Below the pieces are notes generated by a model, which was not told the DNA's origin, made no database searches, and saw only the letters and a list, made by a program, of their open reading frames with translations. Below are positions 18,112 through 47,790 of a DNA stretch of 51,453 bases, piece by piece. This DNA is from a virus. The first letter of the stretch is position 1, and every line of letters begins with the position of its first letter. Where the stretch lies: the IMG/VR virus record IMGVR_UViG_3300020195_000035, positions 1 to 51,453 of that record; one strand, 5' to 3'. The position numbers were made by a program, and so were the translations under genes.

Positions 18112-18123
18112 CACTGCCACCTT

Positions 18124-18167: not shown

Positions 18168-18200
18168 AACATAACCCTATAAATGCACCTGCTTGAACGC

Positions 18201-19259: not shown

Positions 19260-19420
19260 TTAGATGCTCCTTTGTTGAAGTGCTTAATGTTTACGTCAGC
19301 CGCCACCCACTTTGCCACATGCCATATAAAGCTGGTGCAAAAAACAAAACTGAACCAGCCCAATAGTACACACAAAAACTCCACAACTTCTCCCCACGAC
19401 AACTCCATGATGTACCCCAT
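19256..19420 (-). CDS. Small single-span membrane protein, 54 aa
   Basis: Too short for most gene callers. The ATG overlaps the stop of the upstream 152-aa gene (TGATG), and its own stop overlaps the SSB GTG (GTGA). This end-to-end coupling strongly suggests a real gene. The central segment (VEFLCVLLGWFSFVFCTSF) is a clear transmembrane helix; the C-terminus is basic. A membrane peptide directly before an SSB is unexpected; it could tether or regulate the replisome. Function unknown. Confidence 0.6.
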   Translation of the reverse strand: MGYIMELSWGEVVEFLCVLLGWFSFVFCTSFIWHVAKWVAADVNIKHFNKGASK

Positions 19421-19878
19421 CAAGTGCCCCCCTTGTGCGCAGTGCGCTCACGGGGCCGCTCATACGACTTGCCTGAATCTTCCGAAAAGTAATTGGAAGT
19501 GTACAAGGCAACCAGATCGCGTAGAGCATACGAGCGCAGTTTGTAGGATTCGCGCAGAGCATCAAGCTGCGCTGATGCAGCTTGCGCAGCCAGTATTCTG
19601 CGCTTGGCTTTTCTTACCCGAATGTGGGCTGAAATCTGATTCTTGAGTTGGGTTTCTGTCGGCTTCTTTTCCCCACTGTGGGACGCCGCTTTCCGCAACT
19701 CATAATCGACCTCAGCCTCGATCTGCTTACTGCGCAATTCAGCACTGTCCTTTTCCGCAAGTGCGGACATGAACAGTTTGCTCACGCTATAAAATGTCTG
19801 CGGTTGGCGGATCAACTCTTTATCAAGATCGTCTTTACTAATCCGCAGCCCACGCTCAAGTTCCTGCAAGTCGTCCAT
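19420..19878 (-). CDS. Hypothetical helical protein, 152 aa (possible recombination mediator)
   Basis: Almost entirely helical and charged: an N-terminal LDKELIRQPQTFYSVSKLFMSAL segment, an AEVDYELRK coil, and an ALRDLVALYTSNYFS ending. This pattern recurs, as I recall, in phage replication operons, and size and position between clamp loader and SSB/recA would suit a UvsY-like loader; that is inference only. I use the ATG giving MDDLQELERG; its ribosome site is weak. It is translationally linked to the small membrane gene below. Confidence 0.55.
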   Translation of the reverse strand: MDDLQELERGLRISKDDLDKELIRQPQTFYSVSKLFMSALAEKDSAELRSKQIEAEVDYELRKAASHSGEKKPTETQLKNQISAHIRVRKAKRRILAAQAASAQLDALRESYKLRSYALRDLVALYTSNYFSEDSGKSYERPRERTAHKGGT

Positions 19879-19897
19879 GCTTAACCATACGGTGTGA

Positions 19898-20827
19898 TTA
19901 CTGAAGGACAACCCTTCCAAGCGACATTAAAACTGGATACAGCCCGTTGACGGGCGGATAAGGCTCGGCAAAGGCATCAAGCACTTCACACAAATATCCG
20001 GCCCGGCTATCTTCAGACGTGTTAAACAGAACGCTTTCGATGTAGGTACACACCACGATGCGTATGCTTTCAGCATTCTTTCCTTTCATTCGCTTTACCA
20101 GCGCAACAGCTTCAGCCCAATGAGGCTTGCCCTGCACAAGCAACTGGCACAAGTCTTTAATCTCCGCATCATCTACTTCCACGGATGCCAGCAATTCGGC
20201 AGCGTCCTCTGTGTACACCAATCCGGCACACTTCGTCAGCAGTGACAACGCCCGCCGGTACGAACCGTGTGATTCTCTAGCAATCAGCTTCAAAACACTT
20301 TCAGACGTTTGAAATAACTCTTTTGATTCCACACGCTCCAAAAGCGCAACAATATCAGCTTTCTTGGCGGGCAAAAGGTTAAACACAGTGCAGCGCGTTT
20401 TAAGAGTTTCAGGAACTTTGGAAATTTCTGTGGTGCAGAAAAACCAGTACGCACCGGCGGGGGGTTCTTCCACACTTTTAAGCAACGCCTGCAATGCCGG
20501 TTTAGAGGCCGCTTGGCATTCATCGTAGATGATCGCCCGCTTACCCGATCCCAAGCCAATAAACTGTAGCACCGATGTCAGTTCGCGGGCGTCGTCAACA
20601 CCGCTCTTAGTAGCGGCATCGACTTCTATGATGTTGTTTGATGAGCAACCCATCTCAGCCGCCACGATCCGCGCAATGGTTGTTTTGCCAACCCCCGGCG
20701 CACCCACAAATAGAAAGGCCCTGCTGGATTTACTCTTGATGATGCTGCGGAGTGCCTTTACCGTGCTCTCACAACCAATCAAATCTTCCAACACCTTCGG
20801 TCGATGTTTTGTAATCAAATCACTCAT
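19898..20827 (-). CDS. Clamp loader ATPase subunit, 309 aa
   Basis: AAA+ clamp loader of the RFC small-subunit/DnaX type, loading the sliding clamp. The N-terminus LITKHRPKVLEDLIG is typical. Walker A GAPGVGKTT is near residue 43. The Walker B position is IIYDECQ (canonical DExx). Sensor 1 reads WFFCTTE, and the arginine-finger region reads ETLKTRC (SRC motif variant). Only one loader gene is seen; small homo-oligomeric loaders are common in phages. A terminator lies upstream and the polymerase and clamp genes lie nearby. Confidence 0.85.
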   Translation of the reverse strand: MSDLITKHRPKVLEDLIGCESTVKALRSIIKSKSSRAFLFVGAPGVGKTTIARIVAAEMGCSSNNIIEVDAATKSGVDDARELTSVLQFIGLGSGKRAIIYDECQAASKPALQALLKSVEEPPAGAYWFFCTTEISKVPETLKTRCTVFNLLPAKKADIVALLERVESKELFQTSESVLKLIARESHGSYRRALSLLTKCAGLVYTEDAAELLASVEVDDAEIKDLCQLLVQGKPHWAEAVALVKRMKGKNAESIRIVVCTYIESVLFNTSEDSRAGYLCEVLDAFAEPYPPVNGLYPVLMSLGRVVLQ

Positions 20828-20840
20828 TCAACGCCTCATT

Positions 20841-20872
20841 AAAAAAACATAGCAGGCTAGTTACAGCCTGCT
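20841..20872 (-). terminator. Intrinsic terminator before clamp loader gene
   Basis: Minus-strand AGCAGGC and GCCTGCT form a 7-bp stem with an 8-base loop, then ATG and TTTTTTT (20841-20847). It separates the 219-aa gene from the clamp loader. Confidence 0.8.
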
Positions 20873-20907
20873 CTGCGGTGACGGGCAACCCCTCACACGA
20901 CTCGGCT

Positions 20908-21567
20908 TTACTTGCTTCCCTTTTTTGACTTCAACGGGCGCTTGACGAATTTAGCCTTCAGGTCGAATCGCGTTCTGCGCCGTGGCGGAAAGGCATCAAC
21001 GGGGGCGGCTTCAATCAATTTCGCGAGTGTCGTTTTTGCCAAAACCACGTCTTTCAATCCCAACCCTTTACGCTGCGCATTACGCCCGAAATAAATCTGC
21101 GTATCCACCGTTTTTTCTGACAAGGCAACACCCAACTTTTTCATTGCGCCATTCGCGCGCTTCGCTGTCCAACCAAGTGCCCCAAGTCGGCGCAGAATGC
21201 CCGTCACGGATACGCCTTCCCAAAGCAGTGAGGGACGCCCCCGCACTGACTTGCCCTTAGCGTCCACGTTCTTGCGTTTCGGCGCGCCCTTCGTTTTAAC
21301 AGAGGGGGTGTCAGCAAAACCCTTCAACAACCGCTCTGACCACTCCTTAAAGTTCAGCGACGGTGTGAAAGCGTTAATAGCCGGTTCTTTTCTGTCCACA
21401 ACCCAAAGCTCCTTTTTGTGCTGGCGCTTCCGGGTGCTATTGCGAAACTCTGCCACAACAGGGGGCAGCATTTCAAAACGATCCCCAAGTCGGTAGGGCT
21501 TGCGCTCTGCGCCCAACTGTTTTTTATACCGAAACTCCAACAAGTCCATCTTTGCTCGTTCTGACAT
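20908..21567 (-). CDS. Hypothetical basic protein, 219 aa, HTH-like domain
   Basis: Family unknown. Very basic with a Lys-rich tail. Residues about 120-165 (GILRRLGALGWTAKRANGAM, then KKLGVALSEKTVDTQIYFGR) look like a small helical DNA-binding fold. The pattern G-V-x-L-S-x2-T-x2-T-x2-Y-x2-R also ends the acidic 336-aa protein encoded at 25395. AAGGAG precedes the ATG. It lies just downstream of the polymerase with a gap of about 75 bases, and a terminator follows it. Confidence 0.6.
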   Translation of the reverse strand: MSERAKMDLLEFRYKKQLGAERKPYRLGDRFEMLPPVVAEFRNSTRKRQHKKELWVVDRKEPAINAFTPSLNFKEWSERLLKGFADTPSVKTKGAPKRKNVDAKGKSVRGRPSLLWEGVSVTGILRRLGALGWTAKRANGAMKKLGVALSEKTVDTQIYFGRNAQRKGLGLKDVVLAKTTLAKLIEAAPVDAFPPRRRTRFDLKAKFVKRPLKSKKGSK

Positions 21568-21641
21568 CTGAACATCTCCTTACTTTAGAACATGGAATTC
21601 AAGAACCCTTTTAACTATACCCCCATTAAAGAAAACTTGCG

Positions 21642-24260
21642 CTATTTATTTTTGAAATCTCGCGTATCGAATGTTTTATAGGGTTTCAAGGCATACCAGT
21701 TGGGGCCAGTTTTCACTTCTGCGGTCAAAGGCACTTTCTTGGGCCACCAATCAACCCGCGGGATGGTCATGTACTTGGCCTTGACACGAATCGCTTCATC
21801 CGCCTTATCCGAAGGATAAAAACTGGATATATCATCGTGTACAAACAAGATCGGTGCGCGCCATGGTTCGTTATTGTCCTGCGCCATTTCAAACAACCTT
21901 GTCATGGCGTCCATCACCAAATCGCCCGCAGTGCCCTGCACCCCTGCGTTAATGAGTGCGTTGTGGCTCATCGGCCCGTGCCGCCTTCGGCCACTCAAGC
22001 ACGACACAAACCCATTCTTGTCGTAGCCCTCAATAATCTCCTGTTGCCATTCCCGCACACGCTGACACTGCTTCCACAGAGCACCCTGAAGATGCTCTGC
22101 ATCGGATTGCTCGATTTCCAGATAGTAGGAAATCGCGTTGATGGATGCCCCAAAGAATGAGGGAAACACAAACTCATTCTTCACGGCAGTTCGCGCTGCT
22201 TTCTTGTCCCCGTTAAATCGCTTGTCCAGCCAACCCCTGCACCGCTTGGCAATGCGCTCCATCCATTCCGTGTGAATATCATAATTTTCCAACAAGGCTT
22301 TCAGGATGAACGGGTCGTCACTCATCGCCCCGATGACGCGGTACTCCAACTGCCCCTCGTCGGCGGCAACAAAAACGTGGCCTTCAGGTGCAGGATAACA
22401 CGCTCTGATGACTGCTGTTTTTGCATTACGCAAAGGTTGGTTCGTGACGTTTGGAGAGCGCGCACTAGCGCGCCCCGTTGAGGTGTACATCAACTCATAC
22501 TCAGGATGGATGCGTTTGTCGGGCCACACGTTTGACTGTTTGGCGTGCTCGTCCAGTGGCAGCAAGTAGGTGCTTCTGATCTTCTGCGCTTTGCGTAGCG
22601 CGAGCACATTCAGCGCAAACTTCGTGCCGATCTTAGTCAGCACTTCTTCTTCAACCGAACACTTTGCTTTCTTAGTTCCAGTGGCCGGGGTGACGATGAC
22701 TTCCTTACGATTCTTGATCTCCAAAAACAGCTTCACCATTTGAGGATTACTATCAGGATTAAATGATTCGTTGAATCGCTCCTGATACTCGGCAACCACA
22801 CTGCTACTCATCACCTTTTCCAGCCCGGCCTTGATCTCTGCTTCGTATTCCCGCAACATCTCTACCTGAACCGTAAAGTCAACGGGCATCCCCATCAATT
22901 GAGCACTCACGAAGGGGGCAACGCGCTTGAGATGGAATCTGTAAAAATCGTAGAGCTTGGCTTCAATCAGCCTGTTTTTCAAAATGCGATCCAGCTTGTG
23001 CTCATACTTACAATCCAGCGCATTATACCGACACACATCCCCAACCGGCTCTGATGATAACCGCGTCACATCGACGTTGCTGAAGTCTTTCAGGGGCAAG
23101 CCTAGATTCTCACTCGCCACAAATTGAAGCCGCAAACTGCCCTTGCGCTCGTCCAGCGCATAAGCCTTGACGAGCGTATCATCCCAATTACTTTTGCCAA
23201 GAAGTAACCAGCCATAGCGGTGAGCCAGCCATTCCAACTCAAACTTCAAATTATGCGCAATGAACCGGCCCGTGTAGGTAAACAGTAGTTTTCTAAATGC
23301 CTTATCCAACCACGCTCGGTTTTCCTCACTCCATTCTGCGCCGGGATGCTCGAACGCAATACCGATTGATCGTTTGTAGGTGCCGATTCCAATTGTGAGT
23401 ATTTTCGAGTCCGTGTGATATGGGCGGATGTGGTTTGTTTCCAGATCAACGGCAAGCCGCTTTTGAGAATAAGCCCATTCAAAAAACGCACGCACTTTCT
23501 CAATGTCCTTATCCCCCGTAGCCAGCGTGATCCCATCTTCCATTGTTTCGATGGCTTCGATCTCCGGGTCGGGCAACTCATCGACCCGATCAAACAACGT
23601 AAATAAATCCCGACGAAAAAAGCTGTGGTGCTCTTTGCCGGGAATTTTATCCTTCCCCTTTTCCTTGTCTGTATCCTCTTTCATTCTGCGCAAAATCATC
23701 CGCACGTCATTGACGGGATAAACCCAACACTCGTAATCCTGAATACGAACCGGAAAGAAACGCCCCCGGCAGATGTCCAAGCTGATCTTACTTGCGGGAA
23801 TCAACCACGACAGCGCCGTTTTTGTCACCGGCACAATGACTCTTGGGCGACTCTGTAGAATGTCCTTTTCCACCACGCCCCGAAACGCTTCTATTTCCAC
23901 GGTGGTTGGTTCGCGGTAGCCCGGCAACAGCGTGGTGACACAATTATTAAAGCGTGTGTACTGCTTGTAATCACGCGGAAGATGATCCCGAACAAACCGC
24001 CCCACCGGGCCGCCGAACGGAGCACCATCCTCATCATCCACCGCACTTGGGGCGCTGCCTAGAAGGTAAATCAGCGGGTGGTCGCTTCCCGTAGGTTTCA
24101 TCTCAGGATTATGCGCCCGCGCATTGAGTATGCCCAATGCTTTAGGCCCAAGTCTTTTCAGAGTTGCCGGATCGAACTTCTGCGCTCGCGCGCGTACTCC
24201 TTTTGGTTTTTTTAAGACGCCTTCAACCATCTCCTGCCGCGTAAAAAAACCGATGTTCAT
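21642..24260 (-). CDS. polA: Family A DNA polymerase with N-terminal UDG-like domain, 872 aa
   Basis: Residues about 60-195 resemble family 4 uracil-DNA glycosylase (GSAPSAVDDEDGAPFGG; RPRVIVPVTKTAL; VYPVNDVR), an arrangement known from SPO1 DNA polymerase; the iron-sulfur cysteines of true family 4 enzymes are not evident. The 3'-5' exonuclease shows D272-x-E274, HNLKFELEWL and Y412/D416. Polymerase motif A is D634-E-G-Q-L-E639, motif B region has K694 and SFFGAS, and motif C is H808-D-D. The ATG overlaps the clamp stop (ATGA). It is the replicative polymerase. Confidence 0.9.
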   Translation of the reverse strand: MNIGFFTRQEMVEGVLKKPKGVRARAQKFDPATLKRLGPKALGILNARAHNPEMKPTGSDHPLIYLLGSAPSAVDDEDGAPFGGPVGRFVRDHLPRDYKQYTRFNNCVTTLLPGYREPTTVEIEAFRGVVEKDILQSRPRVIVPVTKTALSWLIPASKISLDICRGRFFPVRIQDYECWVYPVNDVRMILRRMKEDTDKEKGKDKIPGKEHHSFFRRDLFTLFDRVDELPDPEIEAIETMEDGITLATGDKDIEKVRAFFEWAYSQKRLAVDLETNHIRPYHTDSKILTIGIGTYKRSIGIAFEHPGAEWSEENRAWLDKAFRKLLFTYTGRFIAHNLKFELEWLAHRYGWLLLGKSNWDDTLVKAYALDERKGSLRLQFVASENLGLPLKDFSNVDVTRLSSEPVGDVCRYNALDCKYEHKLDRILKNRLIEAKLYDFYRFHLKRVAPFVSAQLMGMPVDFTVQVEMLREYEAEIKAGLEKVMSSSVVAEYQERFNESFNPDSNPQMVKLFLEIKNRKEVIVTPATGTKKAKCSVEEEVLTKIGTKFALNVLALRKAQKIRSTYLLPLDEHAKQSNVWPDKRIHPEYELMYTSTGRASARSPNVTNQPLRNAKTAVIRACYPAPEGHVFVAADEGQLEYRVIGAMSDDPFILKALLENYDIHTEWMERIAKRCRGWLDKRFNGDKKAARTAVKNEFVFPSFFGASINAISYYLEIEQSDAEHLQGALWKQCQRVREWQQEIIEGYDKNGFVSCLSGRRRHGPMSHNALINAGVQGTAGDLVMDAMTRLFEMAQDNNEPWRAPILFVHDDISSFYPSDKADEAIRVKAKYMTIPRVDWWPKKVPLTAEVKTGPNWYALKPYKTFDTRDFKNK

Positions 24261-25309
24261 CCTTCATCTTTCTCTGAAAAAACAGGCAAACTTACCAAAT
24301 GAACCGGCCCCATTCCGTAGAACATGATGGCCCCCCGGATGACAGAAAAATGCGTGGCAGTTTTCAAGCACGACAGCACAGACTTGCTTTGAATGTTGAT
24401 GTTGAAATCTGCGCAACCCGCAATGGCAAGAGTATCAGAAATCTTCCCAACCTTGCCCCGCCCGCTGATTCGCATCAGGCCGTCTTTGACCGTAAGAGTC
24501 AGTACATCATTGTCTTTTGCCGTCAGAGCGCTGGCGCACCGCTGTAGGGCTGTGGCAAAAGACTCTGGTAAGGCCACACCATGCGCTTTGGCTGACTTGA
24601 CCAAGTTGTTTTTGAAAACATCCCGATACTTCTGCGGCTCTGCCGAACGTGCGATCTTTGAATAAACCCGAATGCCCTCAAACCGGGCCTCAATCGCATC
24701 TTTATAAAACAACAGAGACTTGAAGGCTTCTTCGGGCAAACCCGACAGCAGTTTGATGAACTGCGCGGGAAGCCTGATCGCATGGGGTATGTTGTCGCTG
24801 CGCTGAATAGGTAAAAACACACGACTGATCTGGATGTCATTTGTTGAGTACGCCGTGCAATTATCCCCACCAAAATCGAGCGTGGCCCCACTGCTCCACA
24901 TCATATCAAGCGGTAGAAAATTCATGGACACCTGAAGAAACTTCAACTGTGACAGCACCTTAGGATCAATGACTTTTAACTCTGGTTCGACCGGGGGAAC
25001 AAAGGCGAACTCTGCGGGGGGCAACAGCGTGGTTTTCAGCCGGGCTTTCCGCGACTTAAACACCACCACATCACCCTCAACCCCAAAATCAACTTGGGGG
25101 CCAGCAGAGCCAAGCCAAGCCAGTAGGGGAGCACCCTGCACGCCCCCGGCAAAGGGTACTTGCAACTCAGCTTTTACGGCCACCACGTCATTAAAAGCGT
25201 GGACTGATTTTCCTGTAAAGCAAAAGCATTGCATCACAGGTACGGATACATCCCGATGGAGCGCGGGGCTGACTGCTCTCAACGCAGCCAGTAGTTGTTC
25301 TGTTTCCAT
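24257..25309 (-). CDS. Sliding-clamp-like (DnaN-type) protein, 350 aa
   Basis: Probable polymerase processivity clamp. Length and a repeated three-lobe beta pattern fit a DnaN-like clamp. The N-terminal LLAALRAVSPALHRDVSVPV and the C-terminal FNINIQSKSVLSCLKTA segment resemble clamp domains. The four-base overlap with the polymerase start supports the assignment. The ATG follows AAAGG; an upstream in-frame start lacks a ribosome site. Sequence similarity to bacterial DnaN is weak by eye, so context carries part of the call. Confidence 0.6.
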   Translation of the reverse strand: METEQLLAALRAVSPALHRDVSVPVMQCFCFTGKSVHAFNDVVAVKAELQVPFAGGVQGAPLLAWLGSAGPQVDFGVEGDVVVFKSRKARLKTTLLPPAEFAFVPPVEPELKVIDPKVLSQLKFLQVSMNFLPLDMMWSSGATLDFGGDNCTAYSTNDIQISRVFLPIQRSDNIPHAIRLPAQFIKLLSGLPEEAFKSLLFYKDAIEARFEGIRVYSKIARSAEPQKYRDVFKNNLVKSAKAHGVALPESFATALQRCASALTAKDNDVLTLTVKDGLMRISGRGKVGKISDTLAIAGCADFNINIQSKSVLSCLKTATHFSVIRGAIMFYGMGPVHLVSLPVFSEKDEG

Positions 25310-25328
25310 TATGTGCCTTTCAAACGAA

Positions 25329-25362
25329 CGATGCCGCCCGCTGGTTAAAGAAGGCGGCATCG
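25329..25362 (-). terminator. Strong hairpin upstream of clamp gene
   Basis: CGATGCCGCC (25329-25338) pairs perfectly with GGCGGCATCG (25353-25362), a 10-bp stem with a 14-base loop. On the minus strand only TTCGTTTG follows, so it may be a weak terminator or an mRNA end/processing hairpin. Confidence 0.55.
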
Positions 25363-25394
25363 ATTTAGTTATTTATGAAAATAAGGTGTCCGCT

Positions 25395-26405
25395 TTACGT
25401 CAACCGATTCAGCTTGCGCGCCACGGCAATCATCTTTCGCGCATAGTAGGTCGTTGTGGCAATCGTGCTGTTGGACAATTCCACGCCTCTCTTTTCGGCA
25501 GCAGCCATAATTGCCGCCTTATCAACGCCTTCCTTTCGGAGCATCAACCCAAAGATGAACTCCACGCCGTCCAACTCACTCTTTTCTTTGGGGATGTGCT
25601 GCTTCACAGCCTTGTTTTTCTTGGCTTTAGGGGATTCATCATCCTCATCAATCGAATCCACCCGCTGCCGCACCTTCATTTTGGAACGCTTGCCCGAAAA
25701 AGCGGCGTCGGCAGCATCAGAGATGTCATCAACTTCCTCATTCTCCCCATCATCGTCATCGGCGACGGCTTTCGCCTTCGTCTTTGGCTTTGCGCGCTTG
25801 GGGGCATCATCCTCATCCTCATCATCCTCGTCCGCGTCCGCATCCTCATCGTCATCCATCCGAGATGCCACTGACTTCCTCATTCTCCCCATCTCGGCTG
25901 CAACTTCCGCTTTCACCTTTGCCTTTGACTTCTTGGGGGCATCTTCCTCATCATCCTCGTCCTCATCGTCGGCGCTCTCATTGTCCTCATCGTCCTCATC
26001 TGAATCATCATCAGGATCGGCATCCTCATCCTCATCCGTGCTCTCACTGCTCTCATCCTCATCCTCATCCTCATCCGCATCAGCCGTGTCCTCATCGTCC
26101 TCATCGTCCTCATCGTCCATGGCGACGGCTTTCGCCTTCGTCTTTGACTTTTTGGGGGCATCTTCCTCGGCATCCTCATTATCGATGTCCGGGAATTCGC
26201 TCACCTTTTTCCCGTCCTCAAGCAGATTGATTGAAGCGTTAAACCAATTCGCTGCCTTCTTGCTGATGCCGTCCATATCATCCGGCACGACTTTATCCAG
26301 CGCCTTGACGAACCGCGCCAGATAATCGCTGCGCTTCTCCTTCGGGGCTTGGCACTTGTGCTTCTTCCCCAACATCTTACAAAGTTCCTGTTCGATCTTG
26401 CTCAT
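25395..26405 (-). CDS. Highly acidic low-complexity protein with C-terminal HTH-like domain, 336 aa
   Basis: No family recognised. Residues 1-75 form a small globular domain. Residues about 78-265 are dominated by Asp/Glu runs, interrupted by short basic KKSKTKAKA-type patches that recur three times. The last 60 residues are a globular domain with a G-V-x-L-S-x2-T-x2-T-x2-Y-x2-R pattern shared with the basic 219-aa protein at 20908. The acidic mass could mimic DNA or bind basic partners. It lies between the sigma-like and clamp genes. Confidence 0.65.
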   Translation of the reverse strand: MSKIEQELCKMLGKKHKCQAPKEKRSDYLARFVKALDKVVPDDMDGISKKAANWFNASINLLEDGKKVSEFPDIDNEDAEEDAPKKSKTKAKAVAMDDEDDEDDEDTADADEDEDEDESSESTDEDEDADPDDDSDEDDEDNESADDEDEDDEEDAPKKSKAKVKAEVAAEMGRMRKSVASRMDDDEDADADEDDEDEDDAPKRAKPKTKAKAVADDDDGENEEVDDISDAADAAFSGKRSKMKVRQRVDSIDEDDESPKAKKNKAVKQHIPKEKSELDGVEFIFGLMLRKEGVDKAAIMAAAEKRGVELSNSTIATTTYYARKMIAVARKLNRLT

Positions 26406-26441
26406 GTACGCTCCTTATGAAAAAAATGAAGTAACACCCAA

Positions 26442-26960
26442 CTATACCACACTGGTATTTGCTTGAATGCCTTTTAATTGATTTAAGAGTGCTTTGTAAA
26501 ACGCAGCGTCACGATTCAGCGCATAAACGCAAAACTTCAGGATGCTTTCCTGATCGCGCAGAATATCAGAGGGCTTGACTTTCAGCCATTGCAGAAGTTC
26601 CAGCACTTCGCCGACTGGCCCACTCTGGTTTGCCATGAAGTCCTTTGTTACCAAGTTCTGCAAACCACTATCCTCAATGGGGGGTTCAGGCAGCGCGGGC
26701 TGCAATTGAAACCGCGTGCGATGCTTTGTGCGATGCGTGGCCTTATCGTTAAGCAGATTATGCGCAGCGCGCATATAAAGTGCTTGGAAATGCTTCGGCT
26801 CAACCGCAGGGTATTTAGCACAGAGATGCCGGTATTTCAACCAGCACTCCTGATACAAATCATCTGCTTCCATATAGTAATCAACCCGCCAGCTTTGCCG
26901 TGCAATAAACCGGCGCGTCCAGCCTTCCAAAGAGCCTTTCCACACCACTTTGTTCTGCAT
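26442..26960 (-). CDS. Sigma-70-like (region 2) transcription factor, 172 aa
   Basis: The N-terminal half resembles sigma region 2: MEADDLYQECWLKY aligns with the region 2.1/2.2 core helix that binds the polymerase clamp, and FQALYMRAAHNLLND with KATHRTKHR resembles region 2.3-2.4 followed by a basic linker. Region 4 is not clearly visible in the C-terminal 70 residues. The ATG follows AAAGGAG. It is a plausible phage sigma or anti-sigma and a candidate reader of the 15-bp-spacer promoters, although that link is speculative. Confidence 0.6.
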   Translation of the reverse strand: MQNKVVWKGSLEGWTRRFIARQSWRVDYYMEADDLYQECWLKYRHLCAKYPAVEPKHFQALYMRAAHNLLNDKATHRTKHRTRFQLQPALPEPPIEDSGLQNLVTKDFMANQSGPVGEVLELLQWLKVKPSDILRDQESILKFCVYALNRDAAFYKALLNQLKGIQANTSVV

Positions 26961-27000
26961 TCTTTTGCTCCTTTTTGTCACACGGGAAAAGTTTAGCGGA

Positions 27001-27999
27001 TTAAACAGGGGTTGGCAAATTTCTAATTTCCAGCACCATCTGCTCTATCTGCTGCTGGCTCATATCCGCTGGATCAGCCGCCTGTTCAGGCAATGGAATC
27101 ACCCACGGGGTATGCCTTGTCAGCATGGCGCTAAATTGATAGCTGCGGGAGATCGCATCTTCGTCGAAAAGCACGCAAACGCGCTTGTGCCTTTCCGCCA
27201 GCCGATCCACTTCGGCCAACTGATGCTCTGTCCACGCCACACCACACAGCGCCACCACGTTGACGTGATTTCCGGCATACGCCTGAAATTTAATGCAATC
27301 CAACGGGCCTTCCACCACCAGCAATACGTCCCCGCCTTTATTCGCCCGCGCTTGGCCCAAAACCGTGCGCTTAATGACATCCCCCTGCGGATACGTCAAA
27401 TACCGCAACCCCTCATTTTTACTAATTGTGCGCCCCGTGTAGGCCACCATCTCCGGGTGATTCTTAATAACATGATATACGGGAATAACCAACCTTCCCG
27501 CCATTCCACCAATCAGGCAATAGTGCAAATTGAACAAACTGCACGCAGTAGTGATCCCGGCGTCATCAAACCCCCGTTTTCGTAAATACTGAAGCGTTTG
27601 CTTGTTGGTTTTCAAATTAAGCCGCTGGCACTCCGGGGGAAGCTCTAGCGGCTTGAATTTATACACTTGAGTATGTTGCTGCTCTCCAATCTTGGAAATT
27701 TCAGAAAGCAGATCGCTGCTTTTGCGCAGCGACGGCGCATCATCCTGTACGAGTGTTTTTGCCTCTTTATAGCCGCAACCCAACAGAGCCATCACCAAAT
27801 TCGTCGGGTTTATCCCACGGTGCCCCTGATCCCGCCAGCAGCCCCACTTACCGCTTTCAAGATTGATGCCCATGTGTTCTGAGGGATCAGAATCACCACA
27901 AAACGGGCAATGGGTGTTTACGTTTCCCTGCTTGACGTTTTTCCCTTCCGTGATGTACGGGATGTTTCTCGCAACTAAGAACGATTGCCAATCAAACAT
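27001..27999 (-). CDS. DNA primase with zinc finger and TOPRIM, 332 aa
   Basis: DnaG-type primase. The N-terminal zinc element HCPFCGDSD ... KWGCWRDQGH lies at about residues 30-60. TOPRIM motifs are VVEGPLDCIKF (catalytic Glu) and CVLFDEDA (DxD-like). It is shorter than bacterial DnaG and lacks the C-terminal helicase-binding domain, as in many phage primases. AAAGGAG precedes the ATG, which overlaps the end of the SNF2-like helicase gene by 25 bases. Confidence 0.85.
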   Translation of the reverse strand: MFDWQSFLVARNIPYITEGKNVKQGNVNTHCPFCGDSDPSEHMGINLESGKWGCWRDQGHRGINPTNLVMALLGCGYKEAKTLVQDDAPSLRKSSDLLSEISKIGEQQHTQVYKFKPLELPPECQRLNLKTNKQTLQYLRKRGFDDAGITTACSLFNLHYCLIGGMAGRLVIPVYHVIKNHPEMVAYTGRTISKNEGLRYLTYPQGDVIKRTVLGQARANKGGDVLLVVEGPLDCIKFQAYAGNHVNVVALCGVAWTEHQLAEVDRLAERHKRVCVLFDEDAISRSYQFSAMLTRHTPWVIPLPEQAADPADMSQQQIEQMVLEIRNLPTPV

Positions 28000-29552
28000 T
28001 TTGGTTGCTCCTTTCCATCCATAATGGCGGCTTGCAGATCGCGGCCTTCCTTATGGTACTCAAGAATTTTTTCCTCAATGCTTCCCCGCACCAGCACGTC
28101 ATAGATCAGGCACTTTCGCTTCTGGCCCATGCGATAGATTCTGCGCTCCATCTGCTCGCGCACAAGCACGTCCACGGGAGATTCGTAAAACAAAATGTAC
28201 CGGCATTGCTCTTGTAAATTCAGCCCCATCGCGCCTGCCCGGCTGATAACCAGCACGCGCTTTTGACCGGACGTAAACGCCTTGATGACCTTCGGCTTAT
28301 CTTTTCCCAACGTCCCCCCGAAATAGCGAATGTTGCTGATCTTTGCTTTGGTCAGCGTATCACTGACCAACGCTCCCGATGAAATGAAGTCCGTGGCGAT
28401 AATGATCTGCTCCGTGCCCGGAATTTCACTGACCAATTCCATCAGCACTTCCAACTTGGCGTTTTTCGGCAAGGGTATTTCAATCCGCGCACCAGCGGCA
28501 TTCTTGAAAACCAAAAACCCACTTGCCAACTGTCTCATGCGCATAAACACGTTTTTGAGAAGTTGTCGGTTGCCATTTGCAGCCGTCATCTCATCACACA
28601 TTTTATCATAATGCCGGATCATTTCGGGCCGCAGTTCCGCGTACCGCTTCTGTCTTACCAGCGGGGGCAGATCAAGGCACTCTTTATCCCGATACCGAAT
28701 CGAACGATTGCGGCACATGCGATGCAGCACGGGCTGTTTATTCTTTGACAGCACCCATGTACCCCACGGAGTAAATGCACTCTCCACGTTAGTACACAAC
28801 GACTCCCTGAATATATTCAGCGCCGTGCCCAACGTCTCGCCCTTGTCAATGACATGAAACTCGGCCCATAAATCTTCGGGGTTTCTACCAAACGGCGTGC
28901 CCGTTAATCCGTAGGCAAACTCACCCGTCCATGACAGCATTTTACACAAATCAAAAGTTAGGCTGCCCCTCTTTCGGAAAGCGATTGCTTCATCAAACAC
29001 AAAACCATCGATTTTATCGACGTACTGCACCACTTTCTTTTTATCGAGTTGCAACACATTGATGAGCTTTTTTCCCTTTCGCTTTTTAACCTTATGGGCA
29101 CACATCAACATGAAAGTTGGGTAGGTGGTCAGTAGAATTTCCGATGCCATCGACAATGCTTTCAGGCGGTCGTTTTCTTTGCCGTAAACAGTAAGCACAC
29201 GAAGTTCCGGCATGAACTTCTCGATCTCGTCCTTCCACGTCTGAATAAGCCCGGAATTGGGCACCAGCACCATAAATTGCTTGGCTTCCCCCTGCTTGAT
29301 TTTGTGGCGCATAATTTCCAGCGCCACCAGCGTCTTGCCCAACCCCGGATCAAGCAAAAACAGGAATCGGGTTTTCTTCAACCCGATCAGCACGCTGCTT
29401 CGCTGATGCTTGCGTAAGCGCTCTGTGGATTCTTCGGGAAACTCACGCTTACGCAACTCACCGCGTAAATGTGAATCGTCCATCCTCTTTATGCGCTTGG
29501 AATCCCAGAGGGAGCGACTTAAAAAGCCATCGATTGCACTTTGCTTAATCAT
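27975..29552 (-). CDS. SNF2/SF2-type DNA helicase, 525 aa
   Basis: Superfamily 2 ATPase. Motif I DPGLGKTLVALEIM, motif Ia LVPNSGLIQTW, motif II FVFDEAI (DEAI in place of DEAH), motif III YGLTGTP, and motifs V/VI SRAGAMGLNLQ and REQMERRIYRMGQ. The MGQ ending of motif VI is typical of SNF2-family translocases. The ATG overlaps the DnaB-like helicase stop; an upstream start in the same frame lacks support. It may act in replication restart or branch migration, as T4 UvsW does. Confidence 0.85.
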   Translation of the reverse strand: MIKQSAIDGFLSRSLWDSKRIKRMDDSHLRGELRKREFPEESTERLRKHQRSSVLIGLKKTRFLFLLDPGLGKTLVALEIMRHKIKQGEAKQFMVLVPNSGLIQTWKDEIEKFMPELRVLTVYGKENDRLKALSMASEILLTTYPTFMLMCAHKVKKRKGKKLINVLQLDKKKVVQYVDKIDGFVFDEAIAFRKRGSLTFDLCKMLSWTGEFAYGLTGTPFGRNPEDLWAEFHVIDKGETLGTALNIFRESLCTNVESAFTPWGTWVLSKNKQPVLHRMCRNRSIRYRDKECLDLPPLVRQKRYAELRPEMIRHYDKMCDEMTAANGNRQLLKNVFMRMRQLASGFLVFKNAAGARIEIPLPKNAKLEVLMELVSEIPGTEQIIIATDFISSGALVSDTLTKAKISNIRYFGGTLGKDKPKVIKAFTSGQKRVLVISRAGAMGLNLQEQCRYILFYESPVDVLVREQMERRIYRMGQKRKCLIYDVLVRGSIEEKILEYHKEGRDLQAAIMDGKEQPKCLIGNRS

Positions 29553-29553
29553 A

Positions 29554-30999
29554 TCACAACTCGACTCCGGCACGTTCCGCCACGGCCTGCACGTCCTCGC
29601 CCGTTTCATCCTTCACCAGACTCCAATAAGATCGCTTGGGCATCCTCACGGCATCCATGCAGAATTGCCCGATGGAATAGGCTTGTGAAATCATCACGGT
29701 AAACTTATCCCGATCTCCCCGGCCCTTCTCCATCTCCAAACGCGCCAAGCCCAACTCAGCTTCCGGCTCGGTCTGGTTGTACGTCACAAACACGTCTGCC
29801 GTTTTGTATTTTCCGTAACTCAGGCCGACGTGCTTCTTGGTCAACTTTGGTGCGCCTTCACCGGCCCGATTAGCCTGCGTAGGGGCCACCACTGCCATGT
29901 TGCGCTCTATGGCAATGCCCCGCAGATCGACGTAAATCTTATCGATTTCCTGCCGCTCAAACTTGGGATCAAAGTCCATTAAATCCGGGTAATCCACGAT
30001 CAGCATGTCAGGAATAAAATTTACCCAGTGCTCCAAACCTTCCATGTACGCCTTCAGCTTTGGAATCGTCAGCGTGCCCGATGGAAACTCTTTAACGATG
30101 AGGGGTGGTTTTGATGACACATTCTTTGCCTTGCGCGTCAGCAACGTGCCAATGTTCTCATCCCTCAATGCGGGCCGGGCATTTAGCTCCATGTGCTTGA
30201 TGCCTGTGATCTCATCCCCCGCCTTCTGAAACTTGGAATAACTGACTTGCTCTTTACGCTTTGTCAGTGACAACAGCGTTTGCATACAGCGCTCCACAAC
30301 TTGCGTTTCGGGCATTTCCGTTGTTATCAAAAGCGTCGATGTGTGGTGTCTTAAATTCTGAATGGCTTGGTGAGTCACATACCAGCTTTTGCCCATGCCC
30401 GACAAACTCATCAGAATCCACATGCGCTTTCGCGCGGGCATTAAATCCGTTTCGTCAATCGGCCCGATGCCAGTTGGAAAGAAATCCCCATCGGAACGCG
30501 GGGGCACGCCCTTTCTCATCGCTTCATCAAGTCGCGTGCCTTGCTGAAACAGCGTGATGTCTGATCTTGTGATGGCAAGCAGCGCTGATTCTGCTTCGGT
30601 GATTTTCTGCTCATCTACTTCACCTTGAAGGCTTTGCACGGCTTTCTGTGAAGCCGCTTTTACGCGCTGCACCCGCGTAAACAAACTGGCTTGCGCCAGC
30701 ACATATTCAGCATTTACGCCGCGCGACGTTTGCTGAATGCTTTTGTAAATCCGCTTGTAGATTTCTCGTGAATCCTGCCGCCGACTCACAATCGTATTCA
30801 GCAGATCAATGGCGTGCTCGCCGGGAGCCTTCCTGTACTTCGTGATGTACTCAATCGCCTTTTCCGCGAAGTCCGCATAGTAAGGATCGTAATTCTTTGC
30901 GCGCAACATTCCCGCGACGAGTTTGGCATACTTTGCTTTCTTATCCGTATCGAAAAGAAGCAGCGCAACCAAGCTCTCTTGAATTGCCGAAGTGAGCAT
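29554..30999 (-). CDS. Replicative DnaB-like helicase, 481 aa
   Basis: RecA-fold replicative helicase. Walker A is SLSGMGKSW, Walker B is MLIVDYPDLM, and VVAPTQANR corresponds to the conserved Gln/Arg motif after Walker B. The N-terminal 130 residues are helical, as in DnaB. It is adjacent to primase and the SNF2-like helicase and belongs to the same leftward operon. The C-terminus is acidic. Confidence 0.85.
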   Translation of the reverse strand: MLTSAIQESLVALLLFDTDKKAKYAKLVAGMLRAKNYDPYYADFAEKAIEYITKYRKAPGEHAIDLLNTIVSRRQDSREIYKRIYKSIQQTSRGVNAEYVLAQASLFTRVQRVKAASQKAVQSLQGEVDEQKITEAESALLAITRSDITLFQQGTRLDEAMRKGVPPRSDGDFFPTGIGPIDETDLMPARKRMWILMSLSGMGKSWYVTHQAIQNLRHHTSTLLITTEMPETQVVERCMQTLLSLTKRKEQVSYSKFQKAGDEITGIKHMELNARPALRDENIGTLLTRKAKNVSSKPPLIVKEFPSGTLTIPKLKAYMEGLEHWVNFIPDMLIVDYPDLMDFDPKFERQEIDKIYVDLRGIAIERNMAVVAPTQANRAGEGAPKLTKKHVGLSYGKYKTADVFVTYNQTEPEAELGLARLEMEKGRGDRDKFTVMISQAYSIGQFCMDAVRMPKRSYWSLVKDETGEDVQAVAERAGVEL

Positions 31000-31005
31000 T
31001 AGCTT

Positions 31006-31524
31006 TTACTTTCTAAGTGGAAGATACCCATCGACCCGTTTGCCGACCACCAGCTTCAGCATTCCGTTCTGGCGATAACCCGGAAACGCAGAATCAATTG
31101 CGTCATACACCTTGCTCAAGTTAATCGCCAGCGTGCGCGTCGAAATGGGGCACATGGCATGAGAAAGCCGGTTGGCAAGCAGTTTCACCAAAAACGTCGC
31201 TCTGGTGACTTCCTGCACGCTGGTTTTGGCGTCTAACTCATCCCGCACCACGGCCAGCAGTTGTTCGGCATCGGCCTCGAACTTGTTATAGAAGTTCTGG
31301 CGGATAAACACTGCCCACGGGAGCGTTTTTAAGCGTGCCTGCGCCAGCACCGTAGTAATAGCCGTAAACGCGATTTTAGCGTCCTGCGTGCCCGCAGGGG
31401 GGCTGCTGGCGGGGGTTATAGATTCACGCTCATATAACCCCTGCGCAGCGGACACCACTCTCGCCAAGTCCTTAGTCCTCAGCGTTGCCAACCCCGACAA
31501 GATGCTGCTTACGGTGTTGCTCAT
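31006..31524 (-). CDS. Hypothetical protein, 172 aa
   Basis: Unknown family, mostly helical. Its place directly upstream of the replicative helicase would suit a helicase loader or initiator partner, but no ATPase motif is present. GAGG precedes the ATG. The gene starts inside the preceding HTH gene (53-base overlap, different frames), which suggests coupled expression of the two. Confidence 0.55.
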   Translation of the reverse strand: MSNTVSSILSGLATLRTKDLARVVSAAQGLYERESITPASSPPAGTQDAKIAFTAITTVLAQARLKTLPWAVFIRQNFYNKFEADAEQLLAVVRDELDAKTSVQEVTRATFLVKLLANRLSHAMCPISTRTLAINLSKVYDAIDSAFPGYRQNGMLKLVVGKRVDGYLPLRK

Positions 31525-31801
31525 TTTTCCTCACCGGGGCCACGGATACAATTCGGGCCTTTAACTCTCTCAACACATTCCGGCTGAAAGTCTCATCCTC
31601 TTGATCCGCCCAAAGCATTACACGGGGAAGATCAAACATGATGGCGTCTGACCGAATTCCATTTGATCCCTTAATCCGTATATAGGGCAGCTTCCTTTTG
31701 AACCGCCAGTTGTGTACCGACAACGGAATCACGTTAAACAAACGTGCCAAATCCTGTGTCGTCACCCACTCACTGATTAAACGCTCATTTCGTCTTGCCA
31801 C
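31472..31801 (-). CDS. Helix-turn-helix protein (MerR/excisionase-like), 109 aa
   Basis: The N-terminal 60 residues match a MerR-like/HTH_17 fold: TQDLARLFNVIPLSVHNWR followed by FKRKLPYIRIKGSNG, with the typical Trp-Arg then Lys/Arg-rich wing. The C-terminus is basic and not conserved-looking. The GTG start follows AGGAG. No integrase is seen, so a regulator or replication initiator role is more likely than excisionase. Confidence 0.65.
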   Translation of the reverse strand: MARRNERLISEWVTTQDLARLFNVIPLSVHNWRFKRKLPYIRIKGSNGIRSDAIMFDLPRVMLWADQEDETFSRNVLRELKARIVSVAPVRKNEQHRKQHLVGVGNAED

Positions 31802-32023: not shown

Positions 32024-32263
32024 TCAGCTTGATTTGTAACTATCAAGCGCCACTGCCGCGCACCTCAGTTGATCGGCAAATTCCAGATACAAATGTTCGA
32101 GCGCATAACACTTTCGACTTCCGTGGGTAACTGCCTGATTCGTGAGCATGATGGCTAACTCGGCCATCAGCGCAGCTTCGTGTTTTATGGTTGGCACAAA
32201 CACGTTTAACGTGGATGCGCCTTCCGGTCGCGATAACAGCAGTCTATCACACTTGTCGTTCAT
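32024..32263 (-). CDS. Hypothetical protein, 79 aa, likely leaderless mRNA
   Basis: Unknown small helical protein (VPTIKHEAALMAELAIMLT in the centre). The ATG directly abuts a member of the promoter family, leaving a predicted leader of three or four bases and no ribosome site, just as for two early genes near 2972 and 4237. This ties control of the replication operon to the early promoter set. Confidence 0.55.
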   Translation of the reverse strand: MNDKCDRLLLSRPEGASTLNVFVPTIKHEAALMAELAIMLTNQAVTHGSRKCYALEHLYLEFADQLRCAAVALDSYKSS

Positions 32264-32355: not shown

Positions 32356-33045
32356 TTAAACAGGGCAAGCCGACTGTGGTTCGTTTGAAGAAAGTAAGCA
32401 CAAGCCGGGCACCGACACTCCCAATGTGCTGAACGCTGCATATCCCGCCGCTGGTGGTTGCGGGCTTCCCTCAACAACAGGCTTTGCGCCTTCGTCGGTT
32501 TTGGCAAAGGGGTTTTTTTGCTTGCACGGAACAATAGGGGATCGCCCCGTGTGGATGCGGTATTTGTTGACGACTGAAAGTGCGAACTTTTCGGCATCAT
32601 ATTCACCTCTGCGGTTGGGTAAGCGCCCCGCTAGACGGGGGCCAACTGTTCTACGGCGCTCATGCCAGTTAATTTCCCGCCGGTACTGCCACACATGCCG
32701 GAACTCATGCGCAGCCAAGTACACGATGTTATCCTGCCCAAACTCAAACGGAAACCCGGTGGGGTACATGGCGTTGATGCGCTTGAGTTTATAGCAGTTG
32801 ATGAACCTATCAGGCCACAAGCCACTACTATGCTTGGGGTAGCGCAGAATTACCAAACTGACGGTTGACGGGTTGGCTTTATACTTTCTCGGCCCACGCC
32901 CGTAGAAACAGTGACCGCTTGTAACACTGTTTTCTGTTGAACTGATCTGAACTTCCACAAGATTCGTGTTTACCCCCTTGCTTGCAAACTCAAGCAGCGG
33001 AAGCAGCATTTCGTTGGGAATGTCTGAGTCATTGTAGACGCGCAT
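32356..33045 (-). CDS. Putative zinc metallopeptidase (HExxH), 229 aa
   Basis: Contains LAAHEFRHVWQYRRE near residue 115 (HExxH zinc-binding motif, HEFRH) and a downstream YDAEKFAL that may supply a third ligand. The general layout resembles SprT-like and other small zincins, but the family is not certain. The C-terminal third is Pro/Gly rich and disordered. The ATG follows AAGGAG. It is the first gene of the long leftward replication arm, below the promoter at 33091. About 90 bases before the next gene hold only promoter copy 10. Confidence 0.6.
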   Translation of the reverse strand: MRVYNDSDIPNEMLLPLLEFASKGVNTNLVEVQISSTENSVTSGHCFYGRGPRKYKANPSTVSLVILRYPKHSSGLWPDRFINCYKLKRINAMYPTGFPFEFGQDNIVYLAAHEFRHVWQYRREINWHERRRTVGPRLAGRLPNRRGEYDAEKFALSVVNKYRIHTGRSPIVPCKQKNPFAKTDEGAKPVVEGSPQPPAAGYAAFSTLGVSVPGLCLLSSNEPQSACPV

Positions 33046-33090
33046 AATTAAATACTCCTTTTCAGTAACAATGGTTTTGTACAGAGAACA

Positions 33091-33118
33091 AGTATACATA
33101 GAACCTATCATTTGTCAA
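33091..33118 (-). promoter_or_regulatory. Leftward promoter of the replication arm
   Basis: Minus-strand TTGACA at 33113-33118, 16-bp spacer, TATACT at 33091-33096. It differs from the 15-bp family and lacks the GGGAGCATAAC box. It sits between the iteron array and the metallopeptidase gene. Confidence 0.7.
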
Positions 33119-33147: not shown

Positions 33148-33325
33148 GGGGGCGCATAATGCTCTATTATGCGCATAATGCTCTATTATGCGCTGTATTA
33201 TGCGCATAATGCTGTATTATGCGCTATATTATGCGCATAATGCTGTATTATGCGCTATATTATGCGCTAAATACTATATTATGCGCTATATTATGCGCAT
33301 AATGCTTATTTATGCGCATAATGGT
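33148..33325. repeat. Phased iteron array (31-bp period), candidate origin
   Basis: Ten copies of TTATGCGC start at 33167, 33186, 33198, 33217, 33229, 33248, 33260, 33279, 33291 and 33310. Spacing alternates 19 and 12 bp exactly, giving a 31-bp unit (about three helical turns) repeated five times. A partial unit with conserved GCGC precedes it. Five of the copies extend to the palindrome TTATGCGCATAA. AT-rich DNA follows. Regular helical phasing in a divergent intergenic region is typical of replication-initiator or partition-protein binding arrays. Confidence 0.85.
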
Positions 33326-33349
33326 GGTACATTTAATTATATTTGATGT

Positions 33350-33417
33350 TAGTATAGATAGAACGAAACCACCTACCAGATTCGACCCTTTCTTCTGGTA
33401 AGTGGCTCGTTATACTA
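33350..33417. other. Long imperfect inverted repeat
   Basis: Successive arms pair in register: TAGTAT 33350-33355 with ATACTA 33412-33417, AACGA 33362-33366 with TCGTT 33407-33411, CCAC 33369-33372 with GTGG 33402-33405, and TACCAGA 33374-33380 with TCTGGTA 33394-33400. This gives about 22 base pairs with small bulges and a 13-base loop. It lies next to the iterons. It could be an origin hairpin or a structured RNA. Confidence 0.75.
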
Positions 33418-33455
33418 GATGTAGCGCTTAACAAGCCGGAGCAAGGGTTGTGAGC

Positions 33456-33490
33456 GCAGAAAGACCCTACTAAAAGTAAAGTCTTTCTGC
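33456..33490. terminator. 10-bp inverted repeat, possible terminator or RNA end
   Basis: GCAGAAAGAC (33456-33465) pairs perfectly with GTCTTTCTGC (33481-33490) across a 15-base loop. The stop codon of the tentative leftward 69-aa frame falls in the loop. No strong T-run follows on either strand. Confidence 0.45.
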
Positions 33491-33679
33491 AACCAAGCCG
33501 TCTGCAATGGGCGGTCGCTTGAAGTCTGGCGCTTTCACCATTTTCGGGGCAGGTGTGTCCACCGAGCTACAGGCCAGTTGAGCTTGCATCAGAATGATGC
33601 AGTGTGCGGTAGGGGTCGATCTCCGCACAACTTCCACTTCCAGCTTCGGCCCTTCGCATTGCAGGTTGGCCGCGACCAT
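33470..33679 (-). CDS. Tentative hypothetical protein, 69 aa
   Basis: The only frame of note in the roughly 870-base non-coding stretch 33046-33921. The ATG follows TGAGGG, the composition is protein-like (LEVEVVRRSTPTA; PDFKRPPIADGLVAERL), and no membrane span is present. No promoter of the phage family precedes it. It could equally be a chance frame within a structured regulatory region. Confidence 0.35.
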   Translation of the reverse strand: MVAANLQCEGPKLEVEVVRRSTPTAHCIILMQAQLACSSVDTPAPKMVKAPDFKRPPIADGLVAERLYF

Positions 33680-33702
33680 TAGCCCTCAGGCTCGTTTGAA
33701 GA

Positions 33703-33766
33703 TTCTCGCGTTCTGCTGGCAGTCATGCGAGAAGCATTGTGCTTCAAGCAGTATCACAAACTGCTT
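33703..33766. other. Run of three adjacent stem-loops
   Basis: TTCTCGC/GCGAGAA (33703-33709, 33727-33733), GAAGC/GCTTC (33731-33735, 33741-33745) and AAGCAGT/ACTGCTT (33746-33752, 33760-33766) are almost back to back. The first two share three bases, so they compete. The region lies upstream of the rightward promoter and may encode a small RNA or be part of the origin. Confidence 0.45.
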
Positions 33767-33828
33767 TGTAAAAAGCAACAAGTATTCCCTCGCACCCTAT
33801 GTTGGTTTTTGAGTCAAATTCAGACTTG

Positions 33829-33856
33829 TTGACAAGCATAAGTGCTGAAGTATAGG
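33829..33856 (+). promoter_or_regulatory. Possible rightward promoter
   Basis: TTGACA at 33829-33834, 16-bp spacer, TATAGG at 33851-33856. It would transcribe the five-gene rightward group. The -10 is imperfect. Confidence 0.5.
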
Positions 33857-33889
33857 ATTTTCATTGTTAAGGGGGTTTTAACCGCTTTT

Positions 33890-46635: not shown

Positions 46636-47790
46636 TTAAGTGTTGCTGCGTTGAATCGTCATTGTCGTGTTATACGTCGCGTGCACCAGCCCCATGAAGG
46701 CTTGGTTGGCAACAATCGGGCCGGTGCGGGGCGGGTCTTTTTCGTTGCTGCTAATTTTCAGCCGGGGCACCACTATGGTCATAAAATTCACACCATCAAG
46801 ATCATCAAACCGGACAGACAGCGCGATTTCATCCTCATTAAAGAAGTTGTTGAAATCAGCCGCGTCTGCCATGAATGCCGAAATGCTGCCGCTCACGCGG
46901 GCATCCCCTTCAAAAACTTCAGGAGAAAACCGACTGCCAATAACGCCCTGCGTTGTGCGGTTGTTGTTGAGCGTAAATTCCAATGAAGTGCAAGCAGCAT
47001 TTTCAACGGCAGACTTAATGAAGATGCCATCAAACGCCGAAAAAGGAGAAGTGGTTGGCGCAGCCGTTGGCGTACCGAGTGAAGTACCACTCTGCACCCC
47101 AAAGGATAGGCCCAACAAAGTCAACGCACATGTAACCATTTGTTCCGGCGTAGCTGTCACGGTGAGTTGGTTCACGGCCACGCCCCGATAAACTTCGTAC
47201 AGCGGGACATCGGAAAAACGTCGCTCGAATGTGAAAGTTTTAAGCGTTGAGCCAATGTCTAAGCGCTTGCCGGGGTAGACCAATGTACGCCCACCCGCAG
47301 CAGCGACAGTAACTAGAGTAGTTGCCAGCACCGTAATGGTCGTGGTTCCAACTGCCGTGACTACCCACGTTCCATTGTTGGCGGGGTTCGCAAAACTCGC
47401 GGTGCGAATGGTATCGCCTATGCGAAAACCATCCGCCGTAAACGATCCGGCTGACCGCGTGAACAGATTGGGTGAAGTCGCCCCAAAGTCCGGGCCACCC
47501 GCTACGACAACAGCAGCCCACGTTCCACCCATCGCGGCTTCAAGCATGTCATCGTAAGACTGACTGCCAAGTTCAAAACCAACCGTGCCCGTCGCGGAAT
47601 TAAATCCGTGCCGCATATCGGCCACTTGCCGATCTTCCCGCCCCTCGTTCGATTCGAGTGTGTTGATACTTGGATTTATGGAGCGTTGTGTGTTGCGCAA
47701 GCGCTTCATTGTGGGGGCTGCGGGAGTGACGCCCTGTGTCACTTCAGCGACGTAGGAAAGGCCAACTCTTGCGGCAGAAGCTAAAGGCAT
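46636..47790 (-). CDS. Major tail tube protein, 384 aa
   Basis: Beta-rich protein with the start pattern ASAARVGLSYVAEVTQGVTP typical of large siphophage tail-tube proteins. An internal Gly/Thr/Val-rich insert (about residues 110-190) is probably an Ig-like domain. The ATG follows AGGAG; upstream in-frame starts do not. Located between the tail terminator and chaperone genes, as expected. It should not be read as the major capsid protein. Confidence 0.75.
   Translation of the reverse strand: MPLASAARVGLSYVAEVTQGVTPAAPTMKRLRNTQRSINPSINTLESNEGREDRQVADMRHGFNSATGTVGFELGSQSYDDMLEAAMGGTWAAVVVAGGPDFGATSPNLFTRSAGSFTADGFRIGDTIRTASFANPANNGTWVVTAVGTTTITVLATTLVTVAAAGGRTLVYPGKRLDIGSTLKTFTFERRFSDVPLYEVYRGVAVNQLTVTATPEQMVTCALTLLGLSFGVQSGTSLGTPTAAPTTSPFSAFDGIFIKSAVENAACTSLEFTLNNNRTTQGVIGSRFSPEVFEGDARVSGSISAFMADAADFNNFFNEDEIALSVRFDDLDGVNFMTIVVPRLKISSNEKDPPRTGPIVANQAFMGLVHATYNTTMTIQRSNT

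Follow-up and report, generated by a model that had tools for sequence, protein, structure and literature searches.

A directional 9-mer array beside the least stable DNA of a tailed-phage record is a candidate iteron-type replication origin

The window, that is, the whole stretch of DNA analyzed in this study, is an entire linear IMG/VR virus record of 51,453 bp (G000). Its gene content is that of a tailed phage that encodes its own replisome. The replisome genes comprise a DnaB-like helicase, an SNF2-type helicase, a DnaG-type primase, a sliding clamp, a clamp loader, SSB, UvsX, and SbcCD as well as a family A polymerase (21642-24260), and head and tail genes are also encoded. The largest intergenic gap of the window, 870 bp, lies between a leftward gene starting at 33051 and a rightward gene starting at 33922, and it contains a repeat array. 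Downstream of the array lies an operon that encodes DnaB helicase, a second helicase, primase, clamp, polymerase, and clamp loader. A sigma-70-like promoter of this leftward operon (TTGACA-16-TATACT, 33091-33118, minus strand, 11 of 12 matches) is located about 34 bp left of the array, and a sigma-70-like promoter at 33829-33858 (plus strand) serves the rightward genes (33922 onward). The first gene of the operon (32356-33051, minus strand) encodes a product with a HEFRH motif, a weak DUF6782 metallopeptidase-like match (E 0.005, below the Pfam cut-off), and a 31% identical homologue in the viral locus L130. Further along the minus strand lie an ORF of 79 aa with no match (32024-32263), a 109-aa winged helix-turn-helix (wHTH) protein of the HTH_17 / BldC-Xis-Nu1 type (31472-31801), a 172-aa all-helical protein of an unnamed family (31006-31524), the DnaB-like replicative helicase (29554-30999, phrog_19 E 1.7e-39), the SNF2-type helicase (27975-29609), and the DnaG/Toprim primase (27001-27999). 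Elsewhere, the SSB gene contains 54/111-bp tandem repeats at 18205-18447 (an acidic DE-rich tail). A scan for tRNAs and known RNAs returned nothing at gathering thresholds, and weak Rfam matches on the array were put down to chance.

The array occupies 33152-33321 (plus strand) and consists of ten forward copies of ATTATGCGC (33167-33317) and six reverse half-sites. The forward TTATGCGC copies start at 33167, 33186, 33198, 33217, 33229, 33248, 33260, 33279, 33291, and 33310, all in a single orientation, with gaps of 19, 12, 19, 12, 19, 12, 19, 12, and 19 bp; the reverse TTATGCGC copies start at 33152, 33171, 33202, 33233, 33295, and 33314. Units of 19 bp (A, ATTATGCGCATAATGCTNT) alternate with units of 12 bp (B, ATTATGCGCTAT). 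The 9-mer ATTATGCGC is intact in nine of the ten units, the last being TTTATGCGC, and the palindrome is incomplete in half of them. The sequence-only reading of this DNA had described ten TTATGCGC copies with alternating 19/12-bp spacing and a 31-bp period, five complete TTATGCGCATAA palindromes, and a position between diverging transcription units next to AT-rich DNA. The copies and spacing were reproduced by recounting and the period by Tandem Repeats Finder (31-bp period, 5.1 copies, 90% matches), a recount likewise gave five palindromes, and the position is borne out by the two gene starts and the adjoining AT-rich DNA. Because TTATGCGC matches 38 times in the whole window versus 2.4 times in shuffles, and dinucleotide shuffles of the array itself contain at most 3 copies each, a chance origin of the array is excluded.

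To a partial extent, the array is helically phased. Its vector strength reaches 0.75 with a pitch of 10.5 bp/turn and 0.87 with one of 10.35 bp/turn, and random gaps of 10-25 bp attained 0.75 in 0.4% of trials (p 0.004). A second record, G001 (IMGVR_UViG_3300015360_000149), is 99.6% identical to the window over 11.7 kb of tail genes and carries a shorter array with the unit order A A B A' B, a spacing of 19, 19, 12, and 19 bp, and vector strengths of 0.61 and 0.73 at the same two pitches. Thus, the array had been read as exact and helically phased, and the 19/12 spacing is indeed exact in the window, whereas the phasing is partial and neither the alternation nor the 31-bp period is kept in G001. 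ATTATGCGC is present in all G001 units, and the spacers and the second palindrome half drift between the two arrays. Since G001 keeps the ATTATGCGC core although its units are fewer, do not alternate strictly, and form palindromes only in part, the selected element is the directional 9-mer, neither the palindrome nor the strict 19/12 alternation. G001 also runs 11 kb beyond the right end of the window (G001 17897-29035; window end 51453) with no match to the left end of the window, so the window record probably covers less than a complete genome.

The least stable DNA of the 51-kb record, located by nearest-neighbor scans with windows of 30, 40, 60, and 100 bp, adjoins the array at 33305-33367 and represents a candidate DNA-unwinding element. 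Its 30-40 bp core at 33328-33367 is 80-87% AT. In G001, the least stable segment is found at the equivalent position relative to the array, despite the replacement of the neighboring ~490 bp, which are unrelated to those of the window. Two features of iteron origins are therefore seen at this locus, namely, many direct repeats of the same orientation in non-coding DNA and an adjacent AT-rich, easily melted element, the latter likewise in G001. However, intergenic DNA is AT-rich in general, and the stability minimum is thus support for an origin, not proof. As a separate observation, the non-coding stretch to the right of the array (33345-33840) folds much better than shuffles (z about -4 on the plus strand and -5 on the minus strand) and has no match in Rfam; its G001 counterpart of ~490 bp is unrelated and unstructured.

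The 109-aa protein belongs to a family with six members in related phages. HTH_17 is matched by six of six members (best E 2.6e-5), whereas the match of the window's own protein alone is below the Pfam cut-off. The PDB profile matches include lambda Nu1 (1e-4) and BldC (0.008), with RppC also among the closest. The modeled structure is a winged HTH with a core pLDDT of about 88-91 and disordered ends, and Foldseek gave probabilities of 0.98-0.99 to BldC, Pukovnik Xis, and RacA at E-values of 0.1-0.35, which are not significant. By sequence and fold, the protein falls into the HTH_17 / BldC-like class. Modeling covered the window and viral-contig sequences, with the rows of Edwardsiella phage ZHS left out, and the HTH-family alignment is too diverged to serve as a scanning profile. 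For the 172-aa protein, the AF2 model is confident and all-helical (pLDDT 89.7). There was no Pfam or PHROG match and no Foldseek match with E<=0.001, and neither sequence nor fold placed it among the helicase loaders (lambda P, DnaC/DnaI, T4 gp59); only gene order and position make it a candidate helicase loader. In line with the sequence-only reading, in which no initiator of known type had been recognized, roughly 50 window ORFs scanned in PHROGs and/or Pfam gave no match to lambda O, Rep/RepA, RepA_N, or DnaA. Four DnaA boxes occur in the window, none of them near the array.

To compare the locus with its relatives, 80 viral loci were gathered by DnaB alignment. The HTH-172aa-DnaB gene order is syntenic in L017 and L018, and profile searches located the HTH family further in L016, L024, and Edwardsiella phage vB_EpM_ZHS (OM621816). 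In about 33 related loci, a member of the 172-aa family is encoded directly ahead of DnaB, and most relatives with this pair have no recognizable HTH of the 109-aa protein's family. On the 61-kb contig G007 (locus L024), an intergenic tandem array (7862-7963) comes directly after the HTH gene (7488-7790); it consists of 3.4 copies of the 30-bp unit AACCTCTACACAGCAGGGATAGCATAATTC, and every unit contains the complement of ATTATGC. This array differs from that of the window, and ATTATGC is common to both. In contrast, phage ZHS shares with the window a homologous HTH, a 172-aa-type protein, a DnaB-like helicase, a clamp, a polymerase, and a clamp loader, yet its scanned 39-kb stretch contains no iteron array, and L016, L017, and L018, which also have HTH homologues, show no comparable array in the DNA examined. 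Across the HTH relatives, the sites have a 7-bp core in common at best. Collectively, synteny, fold class, and the co-occurrence with an array in G007 make the 109-aa protein, to which the sequence-only reading had already pointed, the leading candidate for the array binder. Three other loci (L014, L015, and L130) looked promising at first and turned out to be unrelated, and a second repeat region of G007 (0.9-2.1 kb) reads as tail-like coding repeats. In L017, an inverted repeat (CATAACTATATCATG / CGTGATATAGTTATG, L017:9220-9320) flanks the HTH gene promoter and is a candidate autoregulatory operator.

The sequence-only reading had proposed a cumulative GC-skew plot as a check. The raw skew of the window falls nearly throughout, because most genes are on the minus strand, and it shows no minimum or turning point at the array. 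Fourfold-site GC skew was therefore regressed on the direction of each gene and its side of the array, with a permutation test. After this correction, a residual switch occurs at the array (r=+0.052, permutation p=0.003); its sign is the one predicted for forks that move apart, and the leading strands are G-rich on either side. The corrected skew agrees in sign with an origin at the array, but the best single break is at 42-44 kb instead of 33 kb, and 32 kb ranks fourth. The TA skew follows a different pattern from the GC skew, and for this reason the GC-skew switch is moderate evidence for an origin. In G007, the residual switch is similar (r=+0.051, p=0.014), the best break (46-47 kb) is at the array, and the cumulative GC-skew minimum (46,876 of 61,008) is about 0.2-0.5 kb from the array (47,088-47,336). 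Phage ZHS has no residual skew switch of the right sign. Both skew and AT-richness at the window array are confounded with divergent transcription, as is the skew minimum at the G007 array. A switch of TTCTGCGC strand polarity at 33 kb (11+/3- left and 1+/7- right, p=0.006) was dropped because it is post hoc and absent from the extra 11 kb of G001.

Based on these observations, the balance tips slightly toward the array and its adjacent AT-rich segment being the iteron-type replication origin of the phage. This reading is supported because the segment is the least stable DNA, the corrected skew switches with the right sign, the array is upstream of the replication operon, and G007 has a parallel arrangement. 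Against it stand the raw skew without a minimum, the best break at 42-44 kb, the 31-bp phasing that is not conserved, the absence of arrays in L016, L017, L018, and ZHS, the ATTATGCGC sites in early promoters, and the lack of a nearby DnaA box. The origin proposed by the sequence-only reading accordingly keeps its standing as a candidate, with these reservations.

The sites outside the array bear on this question. TTATGCGC occurs there 22 times in the window; in coding DNA, it is present 20 times against the 2.3 copies that synonymous-codon shuffles predict (at most 7 in any of 300), whereas the comparison words TTATGCGA, TTATGCGG, and TTATGCGT total 1. ATTATGCGC is about 9-fold over-represented genome-wide, and the 11 kb of G001 without a window counterpart contain 3 TTATGCGC sites versus 0.2 expected. 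Coding DNA contains 8-9 times as many copies of TTATGCGC, and likewise of TTCTGCGC, as codon shuffles do, in several frames and both orientations (for example, at 8166, 14798, 15247, 16343, 23156, 23251, 24109, 26519, and 26758); this over-representation was not seen in distant relatives. Seven near-identical early promoters of the form TTGACA-N17-TA(T/G)AATGGGAGCATAA are found at 518 (minus strand), 1984, 2962, 3729, 4227, 4504, and 5799. In the promoter TTGACATTATGCGCGTCTGTGTATAAT (1960-1985, plus strand), the ATTATGCGC core lies in the -35/-10 spacer, and it is embedded likewise in a second one (5774-5800, plus strand); these two of the seven are nearly identical copies. Together, the dispersed sites hint that the array binder might have a wider regulatory or genome-organizing role.

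The presence of ATTATGCGC inside two early promoters (at 1960 and 5774) points to a regulator. The array could be an operator and no origin: the HTH protein or another regulator would bind ATTATGCGC and control the divergent promoters, chiefly that at 33118-33091, plus the two early promoters, as a high-occupancy or autoregulatory switch. Consistent with this, the strong leftward promoter is about 34 bp from the array edge, the HTH gene belongs to the operon downstream of the array, a single ATTATGC in L017 lies immediately next to the -35 box of the promoter of the HTH gene, and BldC-type proteins are transcription regulators (PMC5859096). However, ten to sixteen sites exceed the usual need of an operator, the site is found in no more than two of the seven early promoters, these two being copies of each other, and the genome-wide stability minimum beside the array and the skew switches would be left unexplained. 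We keep the operator as a serious, though less likely, alternative, mainly because the dispersed and promoter sites hint at a wider role of the binder. Origin and operator roles may also coexist, as with plasmid Rep proteins.

It is conceivable, though unlikely, that the array is an origin or operator whose binder is not the HTH protein, but either a factor of the host or a different phage protein, for example the product of an unassigned ORF; this overlaps with both preceding readings, so the confidences given to them are not exclusive. No array was seen in four of the six HTH-family phages, the sites of the HTH relatives have no more than a 7-bp core in common, and several early ORFs are without assignment. 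Nevertheless, searches of about 85,000 genomes, and of plasmids and phages, turned up no array of the motif, which gives no sign of a host site, and no initiator-type protein was recognized elsewhere in the window. Iterons borrowed from a host were rejected on the same search: in the genomes, ATTATGCGCNNNATTATGCGC gave only isolated matches, most of them coincidences of the coding type, and a single short repeat in a Treponema MAG; plasmids yielded no match, and phages only two 22-bp chance matches. Finally, a packaging (pac/cos), partition (parS-like), or recombination site is highly improbable: lambda Nu1, with RppC the closest PDB profile match, is a terminase subunit that binds repeated sites, and the array of G001 lies about 0.2 kb from the start of its contig, but the terminase genes are 20 kb off with their own small subunit (12398-12853), no ParA/ParB was recognized, and no contig ends at the array itself.

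In its anatomy, the window array matches an iteron origin with respect to the repeats, the partial phasing, and the AT-rich neighbor of ~40 bp, as lambda and plasmid origins have phased iterons and a neighboring AT-rich region of about 40 bp (PMC5043065). As in lambda ori, where O binds the iterons and P loads the helicase, repeated sites lie by a ~40-bp AT-rich opening region, with binder and loader genes adjacent in a replication operon (PMC5043065). In contrast to lambda, whose sites are inside the initiator gene, the window has intergenic, directional 9-mers with 12/19 spacing, its candidate binder, the 109-aa HTH_17 protein, bears no relation to O, and the phage encodes its own DnaB. The iteron plasmids (P1, F, RK2, and R6K, with RepA/Rep) likewise have direct repeats roughly in helical phase and an adjacent AT-rich unwinding element (PMC5043065), whereas in the window no Rep protein is recognized, 12/19-bp units alternate, and no DnaA boxes are nearby. 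In the PLE satellite origin of Vibrio cholerae, too, the initiator sites are semi-palindromic repeats in intergenic DNA (PMC7145576, PMC8263062); however, PLE has three ~30-bp repeats bound by RepA_N, which was not found in the window. The candidate binder shares its fold class with the small winged-HTH proteins BldC, Xis, RdfS, and RacA, of which BldC forms head-to-tail oligomers on direct repeats with strong DNA distortion (PMC5859096) and RdfS oligomerizes along DNA in filaments similar to BldC (PMC11963761). These proteins, in contrast, are transcription, excision, or chromosome-anchoring factors. A text search of the literature did not find a protein of this type as a replication initiator, and to our knowledge, none is known. 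An HTH-protein initiator, if true, would therefore have no described counterpart among initiators in the literature searched.

Under the origin reading, the phage itself would supply the protein that binds the directional 9-mers cooperatively (most probably the HTH_17 protein of 109 aa), with the bound copies roughly on one helix face. The bound protein may then bend the DNA and open the AT-rich element at 33305-33367. The DnaB-like phage helicase would subsequently be loaded, probably aided by the 172-aa protein, and the phage primase and polymerase would start forks leaving in both directions. More speculatively, we propose a module, itself rather doubtful, in which a BldC/Xis-type wHTH protein coats 9-bp direct repeats and opens the origin, an all-helical family hands over a DnaB-like helicase, and the same wHTH protein represses early promoters and acts at some twenty further dispersed sites. 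Only a minority of phages that encode a replisome have a known origin and initiator, and a defined 180-bp array with a melting element and two small candidate proteins makes this candidate origin directly testable. If the HTH protein is the binder, a regulator/excisionase fold would gain a replication-initiator role, and the 172-aa family would become a helicase-loader candidate in dozens of phages. Apart from these loci, a distant DnaB relative (L084:17200-17620) contains several inverted TTCGCCAGTTTCCGACCG copies and several TTATCCACA boxes, which possibly mark another origin.
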